Origin: Deltaproteobacteria bacterium
GTDB taxonomy: Bacteria > Desulfobacterota > Desulfobacteria > Desulfobacterales > SURF-15
NCBI GenBank assembly: GCA_024644775.1
Contig: JAHEHB010000223.1
Span: 1 to 8,728 of the forward strand
DNA: 8,728 nucleotides
Reading direction: 5' to 3'
Under the pieces are notes generated by a model that saw only the letters and a program-made list of their open reading frames with translations, had not been told where the DNA came from and did not search any database. How positions within the stretch are numbered: position 1 is the stretch's first letter; each line of letters opens with the position of its first letter. The position numbers and the translations under genes are program-made. Below, piece after piece: positions 1-8,728 of this stretch.

Positions 1-1044
1 TCCTCGCTGATCTCGTTCATAATATCCGGATTTAAGTCTTTCTTCTTCGTCATAAATCACTCCATAGGAGGGGTGCCATATCTTCCAAAGGATCAGTTCT
101 CCTCCACAGCGTGAACAAACAAAGGGGTCCTTTGAACTTGTCTCTATTACTCTTTGCCGATAACCTTTGCGAGTTAATGTAAATGTCTCTCGGCACTGGG
201 CTGCATCGGTCGGTAATATGGATCTCAAACGCTTACGCATCTTCTGATAAACCGCTGTTGCATGAGGTCCAAAATATCGAATCCGCTTCATCCCCTTGGG
301 TAAAATGTGTTGCACCATCCGACCCATAAAGGTAAACACATCCACCTGTTCCACCTTGCGTTTGCCGCTCTTATGGTCATTGTACCAGTACTTAACCCGC
401 TGACCATCGTAGCGGATAATACGTCGAATCGATATCGGAGGGCTCACCACATACTTTGCCAAATATTTCGCTAAATCTCTGATACCCTTGGGCACTTGCC
501 CTTTTTGAATGTTCGCCACCAAACCATTGGGATATTTGCCGTAAAGCCGATCTATTTGGGCCCGCATCTCCTTTGTTGGCAACTGGTCTTTGAACATTTT
601 AAATAAATGATATTGCCACTTTTTGTGAAGCAGTTCATAAGGCAAATATTTAAGCTTAACCCAATACCACCCCCCTTGCCGGTTCTTCGCTATACCTCCC
701 GAGATCATTATAACGTGCAAGTGGGGATTATAACTGCCCGATCTGCCATTGGTCTGCAATACAACAATATAACCACCCCATACTCTACGGCGAAGCACTG
801 TACTGAGCGTATCCTCCAGACACTTTATCCCAACCCGTGTCAACTCAGATAACAAATTGACATTTCTATAAAAATAGATCCTCAGCTCATCGGGCACTGT
901 CAACACTGTGTGCCGATAGGCTACACCCGGAAACAAAATCGCCTCTATCCGAGCGGCCCATTGATCCGTATAAACTTTGGCACAAGACAAACAAAAACAA
1001 CTCTTACAAGAAAATGGTACCTTCTTGGGAAACCTTTCAGCCAA
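1..1044 (-). pseudogene. IS91-family Y2 (HUH) transposase, 5'-truncated and running off the left edge
   Basis: Reading the minus strand from 1044 gives 348 uninterrupted codons to base 1. IS91-type enzymes are rolling-circle transposases that nick and join single DNA strands. Visible parts: the second half of an N-terminal zinc-binding domain (CxxCxCxxC at residues 13-21); the HUH metal motif HLH at 108-110 inside NPHLHVI; the paired catalytic tyrosines Y194 and Y198 in YLAKYVVSPP; a conserved GRMVQHILPKG stretch near 241; and a C-terminal CxxC zinc pair at 310-313. The frame is closed upstream by TGA at 1045-1047 and has no ATG start. Roughly the first 70-90 residues of the family, including the first zinc ligands, are missing. 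The frame begins 10 bases past the cytochrome stop codon, so the 5' end looks deleted or replaced. The C-terminus lies outside the window. Family assignment is firm; lack of activity is inferred from the missing N-terminus. Confidence 0.9.
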
Positions 1045-1054
1045 TCAATGCAAT

Positions 1055-1693
1055 TTACTGCGGGATTTTAACATCGTCATCTTCATAAATTCCTTTCTCT
1101 GCGGTCACATGGCATGCTGAACAGTTTGATAATGAGCCGATTGATTCCCGCTGGAATACATCTTGGTTGATTTTGCGGTGCTTTGCTTGGATATAGGGAA
1201 TTTCCGTAATTCGCATCGGGGTGTTGCCCCTAAGGCTTCTCATGATTTTAACCGCCCGTTTTGCCCTGGAATGTTCTGCTGAATTCGTTTTAAGAAAATC
1301 GGTAATCGTCTTTATAGACTCTTTATCAATGTCGACGGTTTCTCCAAAATGGTCTTCGAGCCCGGCAAGGATTTTGTCCCATGATCCAGAGGGCAATAAC
1401 TCCGGTTGATATGCGAAATGGCATGCTCCGCACTCGTCAATGTATTTTTGGTTGTTTACAGGGGTTAGGTATTCTTTTTCATCATGCTCGGATTCATTTC
1501 TGAATCTTTTTTGATAGCGCCTCCTTTTTCCTCCTCTTTCATGATCATCATCGTCATCATCCCAATCAAAGATTTTTTGATACCATGTCTGATTTTTATG
1601 TTCGCCATGATCAGCCAAGACGCCGTGAAATGTTCCGTTTGTCAGCAATAAAAGGACAATCGTAAAAATGATCCAATTCTTCATACCATTCAT
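1055..1693 (-). CDS. exported dihaem cytochrome c (DHC type)
   Basis: This 212-residue protein starts with a signal peptide (hydrophobic core about residues 7-26, likely cleavage near VLA-DHG) and should act in the periplasm as an electron carrier. It has two c-type haem sites, CGACH at 88-92 and CSACH at 191-195. The first is followed by FAYQPELLPSGSW, and DHFGE lies at 114-118. A central MRITEIPY (160-167) precedes the second haem site. These features fit the 'dihaem cytochrome c' (DHC) family, whose members often pair with a b561-type membrane cytochrome; none is visible here. The C-terminus (DDDVKIPQ) matches where I expect the family to end, so the gene appears complete despite the transposase fragment next to it. 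An unusual linker, six aspartates (45-50) followed by an Arg/Lys-rich stretch, separates the signal peptide from the haem domain. The ATG at 1693 has an AAAGGGAG ribosome site 4 bases upstream; a second ATG three codons in is possible. Confidence 0.88.
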   Translation of the reverse strand: MNGMKNWIIFTIVLLLLTNGTFHGVLADHGEHKNQTWYQKIFDWDDDDDDHERGGKRRRYQKRFRNESEHDEKEYLTPVNNQKYIDECGACHFAYQPELLPSGSWDKILAGLEDHFGETVDIDKESIKTITDFLKTNSAEHSRAKRAVKIMRSLRGNTPMRITEIPYIQAKHRKINQDVFQRESIGSLSNCSACHVTAEKGIYEDDDVKIPQ

Positions 1694-2643: not shown

Positions 2644-3489
2644 TTAATCGTTTTCTTGTAAAACCGTATACTCGGGGGGAGCCGGAATGTCATGGCTCAT
2701 CGTTTTTTCGGGCGCTTCCACGATATGGCACGGCGGTTTCTGTTTCAAAAGTTTAACGTAATCCATTACGAGTTGCCGTTTCATGTATTGGATGGCCCTT
2801 GCCGGATCGACACCTTTGGGACACACTCGGGAACATTCACCGGCGTAATGGCAGCGGAACGCACCCGAATCTTTTCCAACAATTTCTTTGCGTGCGTTGA
2901 ATCCATTATCCCGTGTATCCGAATTGTATCGATGTGCCTGAGTCAGCGGCATCGGCCCTAAATATTCAGTATCAGTTGCAACGGTGGGGCAGGCAGCCAT
3001 ACAAGCGCCACATTTTACACAGTAGGAAAATTGAAGGTATCGGACAAGTTGATCTTCAGATTGGAAGTACTCACGGGTGGGATTTTCCATTTCATCCGGA
3101 TCGGAACGGTGTATGTACGGCATCACCGATCGATGTTTTTCGAACATGGGCATGATGTCGGGCACCAGATCTTTGATGATATCAAAATTGGGTAGTGGTG
3201 CTATGACTAACATACGATCCGAAATTTCAAGAATCTGTGTATTGCACGACAGTGCCGGGCTGCCGTTGATGAGCATGGCACAGGAGCCGCAAACCCCCAT
3301 ACGGCAGGAGTAACGCATGGCCAGACTGTGATCCTGATTTTCTTTAATAGCGTGTAAGCCATCCAACACCGTCATACCGGGCTTTACGTTTACGGTGAAT
3401 TCTTGCCAGTATGGCGGATCTCCGCTATCCGGATTATACCGTCCGATTTTTAAAATAATATCTTTAGCCGTTTGTGTGTTTGCTTCCAT
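2644..3489 (-). CDS. sdhB: succinate dehydrogenase/fumarate reductase iron-sulfur subunit
   Basis: This 281-residue subunit carries electrons from the flavin in SdhA to the quinone site in the membrane anchor. All cluster ligands are present. The [2Fe-2S] cluster uses C62, C67, C70 (SCRMGVCGSC) and C82. The CxxCxxCxxxCP block at 157-168, with C213, C219 and C223 (ending CPKGVDP), supplies the [4Fe-4S] and [3Fe-4S] clusters, with ligand spacing as in the E. coli enzymes. The third [2Fe-2S] ligand is Cys, as in FrdB, not Asp as in E. coli SdhB. About 30 residues after position 250 extend past the usual family end; the tail is proline-rich and acidic and contains one more Cys (254). The ATG at 3489 has a GGAG site 5 bases upstream. 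It lies 26 bases after sdhD and is the last gene of the operon. Whether the enzyme runs as dehydrogenase or reductase cannot be read from sequence. Confidence 0.96.
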   Translation of the reverse strand: MEANTQTAKDIILKIGRYNPDSGDPPYWQEFTVNVKPGMTVLDGLHAIKENQDHSLAMRYSCRMGVCGSCAMLINGSPALSCNTQILEISDRMLVIAPLPNFDIIKDLVPDIMPMFEKHRSVMPYIHRSDPDEMENPTREYFQSEDQLVRYLQFSYCVKCGACMAACPTVATDTEYLGPMPLTQAHRYNSDTRDNGFNARKEIVGKDSGAFRCHYAGECSRVCPKGVDPARAIQYMKRQLVMDYVKLLKQKPPCHIVEAPEKTMSHDIPAPPEYTVLQEND

Positions 3490-3515
3490 ACGATCTCCGT
3501 TTAAGAGAAAAATTC

Positions 3516-3881
3516 CTACCTGATAAATTTAGCGGCAATATTGGCGACGGTTCCGATACCGAACAAAATAAGCCCTGAACACCAAAAAACGATATTAATG
3601 GCAGCTTTTAATTTTTTAGGGAGGCTTAGCTCAAACAGGATCGTTCTGAATCCATATAATCCATGGTAGAGTCCCGCACCGAGCAATAGCGTGTAGATAA
3701 CCATAAAAATAACCATTTTGCTTCTGGCGATTACATTATCCCAGGCTACCGGGCTGCCTCCTAGTGGCAAAAACCACCCCATTATCACTTCAAGATGCAT
3801 AATGGTCATGTGCAGCCCCAGTAAAAAAAAGATCAACACGCCTGCCAACATGTGCCATGTCCAAAATGCGGTTTCTCTCAT
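3516..3881 (-). CDS. sdhD: succinate dehydrogenase/fumarate reductase membrane anchor subunit D
   Basis: A 121-residue integral membrane protein with three predicted helices (about 12-34, 54-78 and 93-116), the expected layout for the second small anchor of a two-anchor complex. With SdhC it would hold the catalytic SdhAB pair on the cytoplasmic face and form the quinone site and haem pocket. Candidate haem-ligand histidines are H24 and H29 in helix 1 and H73 in helix 2. The segment HGLYGFRTILFE (73-84) repeats the H-x3-G-x-R-x4-acidic pattern of the neighbouring SdhC, which supports the assignment. The ATG at 3881 has a strong GAGGAG site 6 bases upstream, and that site overlaps the sdhC stop codon, suggesting coupled translation. 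Anchor subunits diverge quickly, so the D label rests on helix pattern and operon position more than on residue identity. It could equally be named frdD. Confidence 0.85.
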   Translation of the reverse strand: MRETAFWTWHMLAGVLIFFLLGLHMTIMHLEVIMGWFLPLGGSPVAWDNVIARSKMVIFMVIYTLLLGAGLYHGLYGFRTILFELSLPKKLKAAINIVFWCSGLILFGIGTVANIAAKFIR

Positions 3882-3891
3882 GGTCGACTCC

Positions 3892-4335
3892 TCAATGGCC
3901 AGCTAAAAATAGAATATCAACGCCTCCAAGTAGAATACACACACCTGCAGCCAGCATAACAATGATCAACAAAGGTCGCTGTGTGTTCAAAGAGGATCGA
4001 TAGGGATAAATCGGCTCTTCGGGTTTTCCTACCGCAAAACCGAATTCGATAAGAACTAGCCGTACCCCGTTTAACGCGTGAAAACAGAAGGCAATATATA
4101 CCAAAAGCTCTCCAAAGTGAAAAAGCGGATTGTTTACAACCCCCATAACAGATTCCCATACCTCTTTGCCAAAGAGACGGGAGCTGGTAACAAAAATATG
4201 GATTAGAAAATAAAAAAACAGACCCAGACCGGTGAGTCGGTGAAGCGTATAGATATAGCGCTCCATTCCCCACCGACCGCCAAATGCCCATCCAATGATT
4301 CCCAATCGATTTGCAGCCATTTTATGATTTGTCAT
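3892..4335 (-). CDS. sdhC: succinate dehydrogenase cytochrome b subunit (anchor subunit C)
   Basis: A 147-residue cytochrome b-type anchor with three membrane helices (about 33-57, 75-100, 124-146). The HRLTG motif at 32-36 is the SdhC signature near the quinone site. H86 in HALNGVRLVLIEFG aligns with the E. coli SdhC haem ligand in its H-x3-G-x-R motif, with Glu in place of the usual Asp. H46 and H73 are further candidates for a second haem. I chose the ATG at 4335 because CGGAG lies 8 bases upstream and this gives a clean 13-base gap after sdhA. A longer frame from a TTG at 4365 would overlap the end of sdhA by 17 bases and has no better ribosome site. It lies between sdhA and sdhD, with a 10-base gap to the latter. 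Confidence 0.92.
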   Translation of the reverse strand: MTNHKMAANRLGIIGWAFGGRWGMERYIYTLHRLTGLGLFFYFLIHIFVTSSRLFGKEVWESVMGVVNNPLFHFGELLVYIAFCFHALNGVRLVLIEFGFAVGKPEEPIYPYRSSLNTQRPLLIIVMLAAGVCILLGGVDILFLAGH

Positions 4336-4348
4336 TTGGATGACTCCG

Positions 4349-6070
4349 TTAATATTTCCTTTCAATCGGCTTCCACTTGGTTATGGAAACGTCTTTGTAG
4401 TCGAGCCGAGGTCCCTGATCCGAATAATAGGCAAGGGTATGTTTAAGCCATTTTTCATCGTCACGCTCGGGAAAATCTTTTCGAGCATGCGCTCCGCGAG
4501 ATTCTTCCCGCGCCAGTGCGCCGGCAAGCAAAACCTCGGCGAGCAGAAGAAGATTTTCTGTTTCCAAGGCGTTAATCAGATTGGTGTTGTAGATTTTTCC
4601 CTTATCTTCAATGCTAATATTATTAAACCGTTCCTGAAGCGATTTTACTTCTTCAAGTCCCTTTGCGAGATCACTTCCAGTCCGAAAAACACCGGTTCGT
4701 TTGTCCATAATACTCCGAAGTTCATGTCGTATCTGAAAGGGATTTTCCGTACCGTTTTTGTTCATAAAATCTTTAAAGATACGGTCTTCCTCTGCGGTGG
4801 CTTTTTCATCGGGCACTTCATGCAATGGGGGCTCTGTTTTGAGATATGTAACGATTTCATCTCCGCAGATACCTCCCCAAACCAGGCATTCAGCCGTTGA
4901 ATTGCTTCCCAGCCGATTGGCGCCGTGAAGTGACGTACATGCCACCTCTCCCGCAGCCCACATATTTGCCATAGCCGTTTTACCATAAATGTCAACCTCG
5001 ATACCTCCCATGGCGTAGTGTGCCGCGGGACGGACAGGAATGGGGGTGTGTATGGGATCAAGCCCTAAGAACTTCATACAGACCTCCCGGATTGTCGGCA
5101 ACTTGCGGTTGATGATGTCGGCGCCAAGATGGGTGAGATCAAGATGGATGTAGTTTAGTCCGGACGGCTCTTCAAACCCTCTGCCTTCCGTGATCTCTAT
5201 GATTTCCCCCCGGGATACGACATCTCGGGGCGCCTGTTCCATGAGTGTTTTTGCATAGTTTTCCATAAACCGGTCGCCTGTTTGGTTTACCAGATAACCG
5301 CCTTCGCCTCTGCATCCTTCGGTCATAAGAATACCCGACGGTACCAATCCTGTCGGATGAAATTGGATAAATTCCAGGTCTTCAAGGGCCAATCCCGCGC
5401 GATAGGCCATCGCTTGCCCGTCCCCGGTAACCGTCGGGGAATAGGTGGTAAAGCCGTGAAGGCAGCCCAAACCGCCGCTGGCTAACAGCAATGCACGGGC
5501 GCGCAGAACTTTAAATCCCCCGTCTTTGGTATCATATACGGTGAGACCGCAGAATTTGTCATCTTCTGTGATCATTGATGTGGCGAATATTTCATCGTAT
5601 CGGGTAAAGGATTGATTGTATCTCAAGAGATGATCATACAGGGTTTGCATTTCGAAAAAACCGGTTTTATCCGCGGCCATAGTGGCCCTGTCGAAGCTGT
5701 GTCCCCCAAAAGGGCGTTGTAGAATTCGACCCGCTTCATCTCTTGACCAGGGGCATCCCCAATGATCCAATCGCAGGATTTCCACGGGCGCGGCATTCAC
5801 AAAAATATCGACTGCATCCTGATCGGCCAAAAAGTCAGAGCCTTTAATGGTATCCCAGGCGTGCAGATCCAGCGAATCTCCCTGGTCCTCCCTGAGCACC
5901 GCCGCGGTTCCGCCTTCGGCACAGACCGAATGGGCTCGATTCAGCTGAACTTTGGATACGAGACCCATATTCACATTGTTTCCCAATTGCCGTGCGATCT
6001 GCACCGCTGCACGAAGACCGGCAAGACCGGTACCGAGAATTAAGACATCATGGATAATATATTCAGCCAC
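4349..6070 (-). CDS. sdhA: succinate dehydrogenase/fumarate reductase flavoprotein subunit
   Basis: This 573-residue catalytic subunit interconverts succinate and fumarate on a covalently bound FAD. The dinucleotide-binding loop GTGLAGLRAA is at 13-22. H47 in NRAHSVCAEGG is the expected FAD-linking histidine. Expected substrate and catalytic residues are H238 (FHPTG), T250 (LMTEG), R282 (PRDVVSR, the proton-shuttle arginine), H351 (AAHYAMGGI) and R386 (ANRLGSNS). The C-terminal helical domain with ESRGAHAR (523-530) is intact, and the length is normal. Residues 246-258 (GILMTEGCRGEGG) read like FrdA, while the following part reads more like SdhA, so direction is undecided; both fit an anaerobe. 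The start is GTG at 6070 with GGAGAG 5 bases upstream. It is the first gene of the operon, with sdhC 13 bases downstream. No assembly factor gene is visible nearby. Confidence 0.97.
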   Translation of the reverse strand: MAEYIIHDVLILGTGLAGLRAAVQIARQLGNNVNMGLVSKVQLNRAHSVCAEGGTAAVLREDQGDSLDLHAWDTIKGSDFLADQDAVDIFVNAAPVEILRLDHWGCPWSRDEAGRILQRPFGGHSFDRATMAADKTGFFEMQTLYDHLLRYNQSFTRYDEIFATSMITEDDKFCGLTVYDTKDGGFKVLRARALLLASGGLGCLHGFTTYSPTVTGDGQAMAYRAGLALEDLEFIQFHPTGLVPSGILMTEGCRGEGGYLVNQTGDRFMENYAKTLMEQAPRDVVSRGEIIEITEGRGFEEPSGLNYIHLDLTHLGADIINRKLPTIREVCMKFLGLDPIHTPIPVRPAAHYAMGGIEVDIYGKTAMANMWAAGEVACTSLHGANRLGSNSTAECLVWGGICGDEIVTYLKTEPPLHEVPDEKATAEEDRIFKDFMNKNGTENPFQIRHELRSIMDKRTGVFRTGSDLAKGLEEVKSLQERFNNISIEDKGKIYNTNLINALETENLLLLAEVLLAGALAREESRGAHARKDFPERDDEKWLKHTLAYYSDQGPRLDYKDVSITKWKPIERKY

Positions 6071-6532: not shown

Positions 6533-6658
6533 TCAGATAGCAGCGATAGTTGATAGCGTGACATTAAATATGTGAGACAGCACCTGACGCAGATAGTCCA
6601 GGTTTTCAGAAGCAGGATAAATCTGAAATAGGTTGGGGGAATCTGGATAACGTTTGAG
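6533..6658 (-). pseudogene. short reading-frame remnant beside the attC site
   Basis: Between a TAG at 6659-6661 and a TGA at 6533-6535 the minus strand has 41 open codons. They read like protein sequence (for example NLFQIYPASENLDYLRQVL) but have no start codon. The frame begins inside the attC site, so it cannot be an intact gene. It may be what remains of a cassette or of a gene interrupted by cassette insertion. I do not recognise the family. Confidence 0.25.
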
Positions 6659-6710
6659 CTAACTTGACGGCGCGTTTTATGCGACGGTCAAGTTGAGCGT
6701 TTTGTTATCC
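6645..6710 (-). other. integron-type attC recombination site
   Basis: The 66-base element has the full attC architecture. The outer boxes GGATAAC (6645-6651) and GTTATCC (6704-6710) are exactly complementary and carry the AAC...GTT core. The inner arms share AACTTGAC (6661-6668) with its complement GTCAAGTT (6687-6694), extended by GCT/AGC pairs with an offset extra base, as in the L boxes. A variable centre (CGCGTTTTATGCG) can form a small stem. On the minus strand the right arm TTAGCTCAAACGTTA matches TTAACTCAAGCGTTA of the classic aadA attC nearly base for base, and the left arm matches its counterpart similarly. The core therefore faces low coordinates, and the cassette body would lie on the high-coordinate side, towards the 425-residue gene. 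The outer boxes depart from the GTTRRRY consensus at one position but keep complementarity. No integrase, attI or second attC is present in the window. Confidence 0.75.
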
Positions 6711-6727
6711 GGCGCCGCTAATTACGA

Positions 6728-6823
6728 TTATGAATGTGGCATTTTTTCTAAAAGGCTGAAGAATTTAACTCGTTCTTGTGGCGGTAAATCCTTGGCGGTC
6801 GTGTGCAACAACTTAACCGGAAT
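6728..6823 (-). pseudogene. 31-codon reading-frame remnant just upstream of attC
   Basis: The minus strand between a TAA at 6824-6826 and the stop codon at 6728-6730 encodes 31 residues ending KDLPPQERVKFFSLLEKM followed by PHS. This has the look of the C-terminus of a small helical protein; LPP-x-ER-x-x-FF resembles helices found in some antitoxins and small regulators. It has no ATG or GTG start and the frame is closed upstream. It lies 18 bases from the attC, where the gene of a cassette normally ends, so it may be the tail of a decayed cassette gene. Confidence 0.3.
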
Positions 6824-6865
6824 TTACTGATTTATATGCACTCCAGTTAAAAAATTATCGTGGTA

Positions 6866-8143
6866 TTATTTTCGAGGAGGAAACAACTGGGACCTTGCTC
6901 CGGTATGAACTCTCCAGCCTTGTTTCTTCAATTCTGTTGTTGCCTGTTTGCTTAAGGAACCAATAACCCAAAGTTCGACGCCGCTCTCTTTTGCCTCTGA
7001 GCTTGCAGAAGTTACCGCCTCAGCAACCCGTTTGTCCCAGATGATGTAATCGGTCGGCAAGAGGACAACCCTTGTCCCGTCCTTGCGCACACCTTGGGTC
7101 AATCTGGCCATAGGTGTAACACTCTTAAGGGGAGCAATTTCTTTATGATACCCTGCCGACATGACCGTAATTTTCGTTATCGTTTTCGCCATGTCGTAAT
7201 CACCGGCCTGAAGGGCAACCTTTATAAAAAGCTCAAGATTGTCTACTCCTTTCAGAGACTCAAGAGCCGTAACCATTACAGTCGATTGAGCAGGGGAAAA
7301 GGATGGATTGTTGAGAAAGAGCTCAACGGTATCGACATTTATGCCCATTCCAACCAGTTTGTTTTTATTCTGCAGCCACAATTCCGAGGCCGGCGTGGTA
7401 TTGATAGCCTCATTCAGCAGCCGGGCGGTGCCTGATGTTGTCAAAACCAGGCCCCCGGCTCCGGGTACAATACTTGATGCCAGCCCAACTCCAAGGCCAC
7501 CTGCGTAATCAGCCCGGCCTAAGCGATCGAGTTCTTTCTGCAGTACTTCGTTCCTGGAATACACATTGACCCCATACTTGGTGGCAATCTCCCCTTTTGC
7601 TTTCGAGATACCGACCAACTGTTCAAACTTGCTGTCTTCCGCGCCGGTGGTCTCCCTCTTGCCGACGGTTTCTTTGGCCCGATTAAACAGGCTGCCTACT
7701 CCCGCGGCCGCTCCTTCAAGGGTGCCTTTCGGATCATTAAACAGATTCTTCACACCAGCGACCGTTTTTTGTCCAGACTGTTTTAATCCTTCAACCACAG
7801 TGTCATCGGTCTCCACCTGCTTCATGGCAGCAATGGCATTAATCTCATTCACGAGAATTTTGAAGTCATCGGTTGAGCCTGCCTTAAAAGTTCCGAAGCT
7901 GGTTTCAACCGTATAGTGATTAAACAGGCCGTCATTTATTACCGGGTCTTGTACCGAGTAATTCTTACCCTTAAGCAACTCAGGTTGAAGAATAGATTTC
8001 GCCTGTAGGACCGGTGGCTCTTCATATGCAGCCCAGGCAGAGAGAGTGCAGATGGTTAGATTAATAAAAGTGAGCAGGCAATAGTAAAAAATTTTTTGCC
8101 ATATTCCTGCGTATTTTTCAGATAAAATGATAAATGCAAGCAC
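6866..8143 (-). CDS. exported 425-residue protein of unknown function
   Basis: I recognise no characterised family, though the pattern recalls conserved hypothetical proteins of proteobacteria. The GTG at 8143 is the best start: AAGGAGG lies exactly 5 bases upstream (8149-8155), whereas the ATG at 8164, seven codons earlier, precedes that site. Numbered from the GTG, residues about 15-37 form a signal peptide with probable cleavage after SAWA, so the product should be periplasmic or outer-membrane associated. A mixed N-terminal region follows. Next is a helical section rich in Gly, Lys and Ala (about 95-150), then a glycine-rich hydrophobic stretch near 212-235 (LGVGLASSIVPGAGGLVL), which could insert in or cross a membrane. 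The final 90 residues look like an alpha/beta fold, with RVVLLPTDYIIWDKR and VELWVIGSLSKQAT. The gene stands alone, behind the candidate promoter at 8190-8218 and about 155 bases before the attC, so it may be cassette cargo. Confidence 0.82.
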   Translation of the reverse strand: MLAFIILSEKYAGIWQKIFYYCLLTFINLTICTLSAWAAYEEPPVLQAKSILQPELLKGKNYSVQDPVINDGLFNHYTVETSFGTFKAGSTDDFKILVNEINAIAAMKQVETDDTVVEGLKQSGQKTVAGVKNLFNDPKGTLEGAAAGVGSLFNRAKETVGKRETTGAEDSKFEQLVGISKAKGEIATKYGVNVYSRNEVLQKELDRLGRADYAGGLGVGLASSIVPGAGGLVLTTSGTARLLNEAINTTPASELWLQNKNKLVGMGINVDTVELFLNNPSFSPAQSTVMVTALESLKGVDNLELFIKVALQAGDYDMAKTITKITVMSAGYHKEIAPLKSVTPMARLTQGVRKDGTRVVLLPTDYIIWDKRVAEAVTSASSEAKESGVELWVIGSLSKQATTELKKQGWRVHTGARSQLFPPRK

Positions 8144-8167
8144 GATGCCCTCCTTATTTGACATTTA

Positions 8168-8207
8168 CACGGATTTGGAAATGATAACCTTTATAATGTT
8201 ATCCGTG
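8168..8207. repeat. nested inverted repeats around the -10 region
   Basis: Two overlapping inverted repeats share their right arm. The outer pair is CACGGAT (8168-8174) with ATCCGTG (8201-8207). The inner pair is GATAAC (8183-8188) with GTTATC (8198-8203), which flanks the proposed -10 hexamer. They could be an operator, or alternative hairpins in the transcript leader. The inner arm on the minus strand (GTTATC) also equals the core of the attC outer box, which may be coincidence or a relic of a cassette boundary. Confidence 0.55.
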
Positions 8208-8224: not shown

Positions 8225-8463
8225 GCCTGAAAACCAAATATTGGCCGATGCAGATATATAGACAGATATTTCAATGACAGGACATAACTTGGGGATTTTG
8301 CATTGAATCCACCAACCACAATCTATTGTCTCTGTTGATTTTATTGAAAGTAACCGTTTAGTCCTTGGTTGAGAGTGAAAATACCGGAAGTTGATTTCAC
8401 GGAAATTAGATGCAATAGGTCAATCCTGCATCAGTTGTTTCACTTGAAATAGTCGTCTTTTGC

Positions 8464-8706
8464 CTATTTGATCTGTACAATGCTCTCCAAAGGACTGTCG
8501 GGGGCAATGCCGCACCCGGGGCAAAGGCAATCGGTTCCGTTTTCCAGTGCCTTGATGGCCTCCCGGAACCCCTTCTTCGGAGTGCTCTGGAGCAGTGTCG
8601 TTGCCGCAGCCAGGTTTCCGGAGACCTTTACCCCTTTTTCGTGGGCTACCTTTACCGCCTCCTTCAAGTTCGCCAGTTCTTCTATGCTGATCCCAGCAAC
8701 ACCGGT
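8464..8706 (-). pseudogene. C-terminal remnant of a UroD/MtaA-like corrinoid methyltransferase
   Basis: Eighty codons encode the end of a uroporphyrinogen decarboxylase-like methyltransferase (MtaA/MtbA group), enzymes that move methyl groups from a corrinoid protein to a thiol such as coenzyme M or a related acceptor. Supporting segments are GVAGISIEEL, then KVSGNLAAATTLLQSTP, and the C-terminal signature CPGCGIAPDSPLE, whose cysteines belong to the zinc/thiol-binding region of the family. Full-length members have about 340 residues, so only the last quarter is here. The frame is closed upstream by TAA at 8707-8709, 19 bases before the window edge, so the remainder is either gone or in another frame past a frameshift. 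A TTG at 8667 could start a 67-residue product, but it falls within the conserved fold and is an unlikely true start. The remnant ends normally, in ESIVQIK. Confidence 0.7.
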
Positions 8707-8728
8707 TTAAAATGGTGATCCCATTTTT

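Follow-up and report, generated by a model that had tools for sequence, protein, structure and literature searches.

The 8728-nucleotide contig JAHEHB010000223.1 (assembly GCA_024644775.1, Deltaproteobacteria bacterium), analysed here over its full length and referred to as the window, carries an integron attC recombination site at positions 6645-6710, and it seems probable that this site closes a single gene cassette, with the gene for an exported protein as its cargo, situated between resident genes (Table 1). A single attC without an integrase has been named SALIN (PMC12690207), and this is what is observed within the 8728-base contig: one attC, and no integrase seen among the genes. That the palindrome is a real attC is next to certain and a chance origin is very unlikely, the identification resting on model score, predicted fold and geometry. 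A preliminary description of this DNA had located the attC at exactly these coordinates and had considered it lone, which is right for the 8.7-kb contig and applies to that contig only, since it is there that neither an integrase nor an array is visible.

The site was scored with two covariance models, both built with the window site left out. The first (R1) was made from 12 attCs, i.e. two from R388, two from R46, seven from the array of locus L046 (in G019, the genome of the Desulfopila locus L023) and one from locus L052 (in genome G026, which also holds L030). It replaced an early hand-made attC scanner, which had found two sites in the L046 array; R1 finds six there at E 0.05 or better. 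The second (R2) draws on 42 attC matches that R1 gave in 25 sources, so that the two models are not independent; calibration was short, and the E-values are rough. With R1 the window attC scores 34.3 bits (E 1.1e-6 in the window), which falls inside the 30.4-45.7 bits of the model's own members (11 of the 12 listed, the one at L046 4628 being absent), compared to 34.0 (R46 aadA1), 34.5 (R46 oxa2) and 40.2 bits (R388 dfrB2). Over 47 sources, or 648 kb, R1 returned 22 rows at E up to 10, and the 21 besides the window attC lie in integron-bearing loci (L046, L047, L052, L058, R388 and R46). With R2 the score is 47.9 bits (E 1.4e-9), and nothing else in 384 kb matches at E 10 or below; within the window alone, E is 3.3e-11. 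Neither model has a second attC in the 8728 bases, where the next scores are 7-8 bits.

The outer boxes, GGATAAC and GTTATCC, are complementary at seven of seven positions and contain the AAC/GTT core, full complementarity being also present in 7 of the 42 sites used for R2. Pairing of the inner arms leaves over a single G, which sits on the right arm of the plus strand, and the variable centre is short, so that the boxes, the offset base and the centre are all as the preliminary description had them. With the extra base on the right arm of the plus strand, the right arm must be L'' and the minus strand the top strand of the attC, and both models likewise place their match on the minus strand. 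The minus strand had earlier been taken as the one to fold; the bottom strand, which would fold and recombine, is in fact the plus strand of the window. Using DNA parameters, this strand is predicted to form a 7-bp outer stem, a 6/5-nucleotide (nt) unpaired spacer, an inner stem from which a single G bulges, and a short loop at the tip, i.e. an unpaired central spacer together with L''/L' arms whose extrahelical base is on the L'' side. Extrahelical bases, an unpaired central spacer and a terminal structure are the features described for folded attCs in PMC5371416. The fold energy is -15.4 kcal/mol for the plus and -12.4 kcal/mol for the minus strand, with z-scores of -4.4 and -3.0, respectively.

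The same fold plan (7-bp outer stem, 6/5 unpaired spacer, bulged G) is found in the R388 dfrB2 attC, and the R''-L'' spacing is shared with dfrB2 and with R46 aadA1 and oxa2, whereas the letters of the inner arms differ and the window has neither an array nor a resistance gene. The close match to the aadA attC that had been claimed at first holds for plan and model score, but less so for the letters, since a count by eye gives about 16 identities with R46 aadA1 in the first 26 bases. The interpretation of the palindrome as a cassette recombination site is supported by model, fold and geometry alike.

On the minus strand, which carries all genes of the window as well as the palindrome, the exported-protein gene is followed by 155 nt (gene end to R'') and then the attC, which is the usual cassette order of one gene and then an attC in the same orientation. 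Because gene and attC share a strand and the attC is downstream, the gene is probably the cassette gene of this attC. The adjacency that had been noted from the start is correct, but the gene is probably more than a neighbour. An alternative ATG start at 8164 would extend the protein to 432 amino acids. At the limits used, it has no relative in Pfam, NCBIfam, PADLOC, PHROG or the PDB sequences.

The other end of the putative cassette is probably marked by a palindrome in which the attC boxes recur and which lies 39-61 nt before the GTG that is the likely start codon. Its GTTATCA half, with the G at 8188, is 44 nt from the GTG and matches the complement of R'' (GTTATCC) at six of seven positions; in the L046 array, the 5' ends of three successive cassettes match the complement of R'' at 7, 7 and 5 of 7 positions. 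The pattern GATAAC-N4..16-GTTATC arose in 14 of 40,000 shuffles of the 320-nt upstream region; when the whole window was shuffled, it arose in 14 of 2000 cases. In 1.33 Mb of other loci it occurs twice, each time within a homologue of the exported-protein gene. R2 ranks the boundary palindrome second in the window, with 7.3 bits, which is not significant. If 6651-8187 were excised, the remaining GGATAACATTATAAAGGTTATCC would again be palindromic, with 7-bp arms that pair perfectly.

Following the single-cassette reading, an integron integrase acting from elsewhere would have joined the folded plus strand of the attC of a circular cassette to a chromosomal G^TT target, where the cassette would then have stayed in place, with the upstream palindrome as its likely left junction. 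With integrase provided in trans, excision of such a cassette is probably still possible. Chromosomal insertion of cassettes at attG sites has been described (PMC12901181, PMC12444791), and the putative insertion in the window would be the same reaction, likewise giving a lone cassette outside an integron. According to these descriptions attG sites are unlike classical att sites, whereas the candidate left junction of the window, known here from sequence alone, resembles an R-box pair.

The exported-protein family is large: of the 7996 proteins scored, 416 reach E 0.001 or better. Its members were located in 30 loci of named genomes at 42-77% identity, mostly in Desulfobulbaceae and relatives and in some Gammaproteobacteria; in the best of these, L001, DNA similarity of 81% spans 6866-8112 and stays inside the coding sequence. 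In three loci (L019, L020 and, in a related form, L005) the homologous gene has palindromic repeats of the type GTAGGGTGGATAAGCG...CGCTTATCCACCCTAC nearby, no more than about 300 nt away. No relatives of the gene were found in viral contigs.

Several observations speak against a single inserted cassette. Neither R1 nor R2 has an attC beside the homologues in any of the 30 loci, 27 of which include at least 300 nt downstream, and ten further homologue loci, partly overlapping the 30, have none either. The class of G019 was covered with 144 genomes; 13 of these hold 18 homologue places, none of which adjoins an attC among the matches listed in a search with strict filters. It therefore seems that the homologues elsewhere are not cassette genes, while the gene in the window seems to be one. 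The 155-nt gap between gene and attC appears longer than usual. As for the left boundary, shuffling the last 120 nt 2000 times gave an equally good GTT-anchored match in 264 cases, the window's minus strand has eight 6-of-7 matches, including one (7069) within the gene, and the boundary palindrome, which was noticed post hoc, could instead be an operator. That the plus strand folds more stably is no attC hallmark and was not counted as proof, because this is shared by only four of the eight yardstick attC sites, and at least five R-box pairs form in the unconstrained fold of only two of the eight (dfrB2 and orfA).

Some of these points would fit a situation, possible but unlikely, in which the attC is real and the gene is not its cassette gene, the attC being the end of a mini-cassette without an open reading frame or having arrived beside a resident gene. 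Besides the absence of attC sites next to the homologues, GTTRRRY motifs at 6817 and 6769 on the minus strand could begin such a short cassette. These motifs, however, match the complement of R'' at only four of seven positions, compared to six of seven at 8188, and gene and attC are in the order and on the strand expected of a cassette.

It is rather improbable that the cassette is the last one of a longer array or integron, the rest of which was lost to the contig end or to sequence decay. The contig does end at 8728, draft genomes can split integrons between contigs (PMC9024848), and integrases are common in a class carrying homologues of the gene, with 82 of the 144 genomes of the class of G019 (which may not be the class of the host) encoding an integron integrase above the curated cut-off. 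On the other hand, ordinary genes flank the putative cassette, namely the sdh operon on one side and the MtaA-like fragment on the other, and the window has no second attC.

The frequency of integrons in these genomes also bears on the setting, which the preliminary description had considered unusual outside the Gammaproteobacteria. This does not hold, given the 82 genomes with an integrase and the 63, of the same 144, in which attC-model matches reach E 0.01 or better. The share of genomes with an integrase seems high for a group outside the Gammaproteobacteria. Integrases over the curated cut-off are likewise present in 14 of 26 homologue-carrying genomes, compared to 0 of 14 control genomes. 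Among the first 83 attC matches listed, 58 have no other of the 83 within 4 kb, a count that takes only those 83 rows as neighbours and includes contig-end cases and sites beside an integrase. Deltaproteobacterial attCs have been modelled before, in PMC8352920, where singletons were removed. In the L046 array, three near-identical 183-nt repeats (9116-9298, 12908-13090 and 19166-19348; 100, 100 and 90%) lie in one integron array, and each of them ends in an attC-like palindrome.

A further possibility, though an improbable one, is the birth of a cassette, in which a gene of ordinary, non-cassette kind in its other hosts would here have gained an attC downstream and a matching R-box palindrome upstream; a resident gene would then have turned, or be turning, into a mobile cassette where there is no integron. 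The homologues that seem not to be cassette genes would be the ordinary form of such a gene. How cassettes originate from genes is described in PMC5371416 as largely unknown.

Finally, that the palindrome is unrelated to integrons (a terminator, the end of an insertion sequence (IS) or REP-type element, or a regulatory hairpin) is scarcely credible: intergenic palindromes are common, but this one scores 34.3 and 47.9 bits with the spacer geometry of an attC, an intrinsic terminator was rejected as there is no terminator-like site at that place, and no Rfam family matches at gathering score.

Other connections of the attC were also sought. A near-identical copy was rejected, as the listed matches of a 76-base BLAST against 297 genomes span at most 40 bases, and plasmid similarity was rejected as well, with two chance matches only. 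Exact-pattern scans of viral contigs for the attC gave 59 short matches in one and 0 in the other.

Table 1. Features of the 8728-base window; attC boxes are given in the order of the top strand
Feature	Position	Strand	Remarks
IS91-family (Y2) transposase	1-1044	-	runs off the contig end
Dihaem cytochrome c	1055-1693	-	
Succinate dehydrogenase/fumarate reductase (sdh) operon	2644-6070	-	resident DNA, R' side of attC
attC	6645-6710	-	R''-L''-L'-R', with R'' 6704-6710 and R' 6645-6651; from models R1 and R2 and fold; G^TT cut expected between 6651 and 6650; plus strand = folding bottom strand
Putative single gene cassette	6651-8187	-	1537 bp: 5' end, gene, attC
Exported-protein gene	6866-8143	-	425 amino acids from GTG at 8143, behind AAGGAGG ribosome-binding site; likely cassette gene
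Palindrome GGATAAC-ATTATAAAG-GTTATCA	8182-8204	-	attC boxes repeated; candidate upstream cassette boundary (G at 8188, cassette from 8187)
MtaA-like methylcobamide:CoM methyltransferase, 3' fragment	8464-8667	-	resident DNA, upstream side

The genes around the putative cassette are of an ordinary kind. For sdhA, four full-length proteins match at 79-88% and another match reaches 98% over 77% of the length; the other rows among the 120 listed are at 67-72%, those named being Zixibacteria, Acidobacteria, BRC1, SM23_31, Sumerlaeia and Hydrogenedentota. Within the phylum of G019 (297 genomes), the highest sdhA identity among the matches listed is 68%, followed by 64% (partial), 55% and the rest at 49% or less. 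For the dihaem cytochrome, the names among the 120 listed matches are Thermodesulfobacteriota, Nitrospina and Desulfobacteraceae, at 63-67%. The MtaA-like fragment was recognised at E 7.2e-14 and 51.4 bits, which is under the whole-protein cut-off of 400 and identifies a fragment only; its frame (8420-8728, minus strand) seems to be broken near the contig end, either by sequencing error or by decay. The IS91-family transposase lies about 5.6 kb from the attC, and a link between the two is not evident.

Lone attC sites are already known, and the find is ordinary in kind. IntegronFinder 2.0 describes one-attC CALINs (PMC9024848), which, like the window, have one attC amid ordinary genes and no integrase nearby, and according to the same source single attCs without an integrase can be true positives. 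By definition there is no difference between these and the window, the gene of which belongs to an exported-protein family with no Pfam or NCBIfam match at the limits used. What is new is this gene together with the possible intact cassette ends. The window adds a clean example of a cassette that is apparently outside any visible integron and away from the resistance integrons, and it does so with a member of a large gene family not seen among cassette genes elsewhere. A comparison of relatives that have the attC with relatives that lack it could, where possible, inform how genes first become cassettes.
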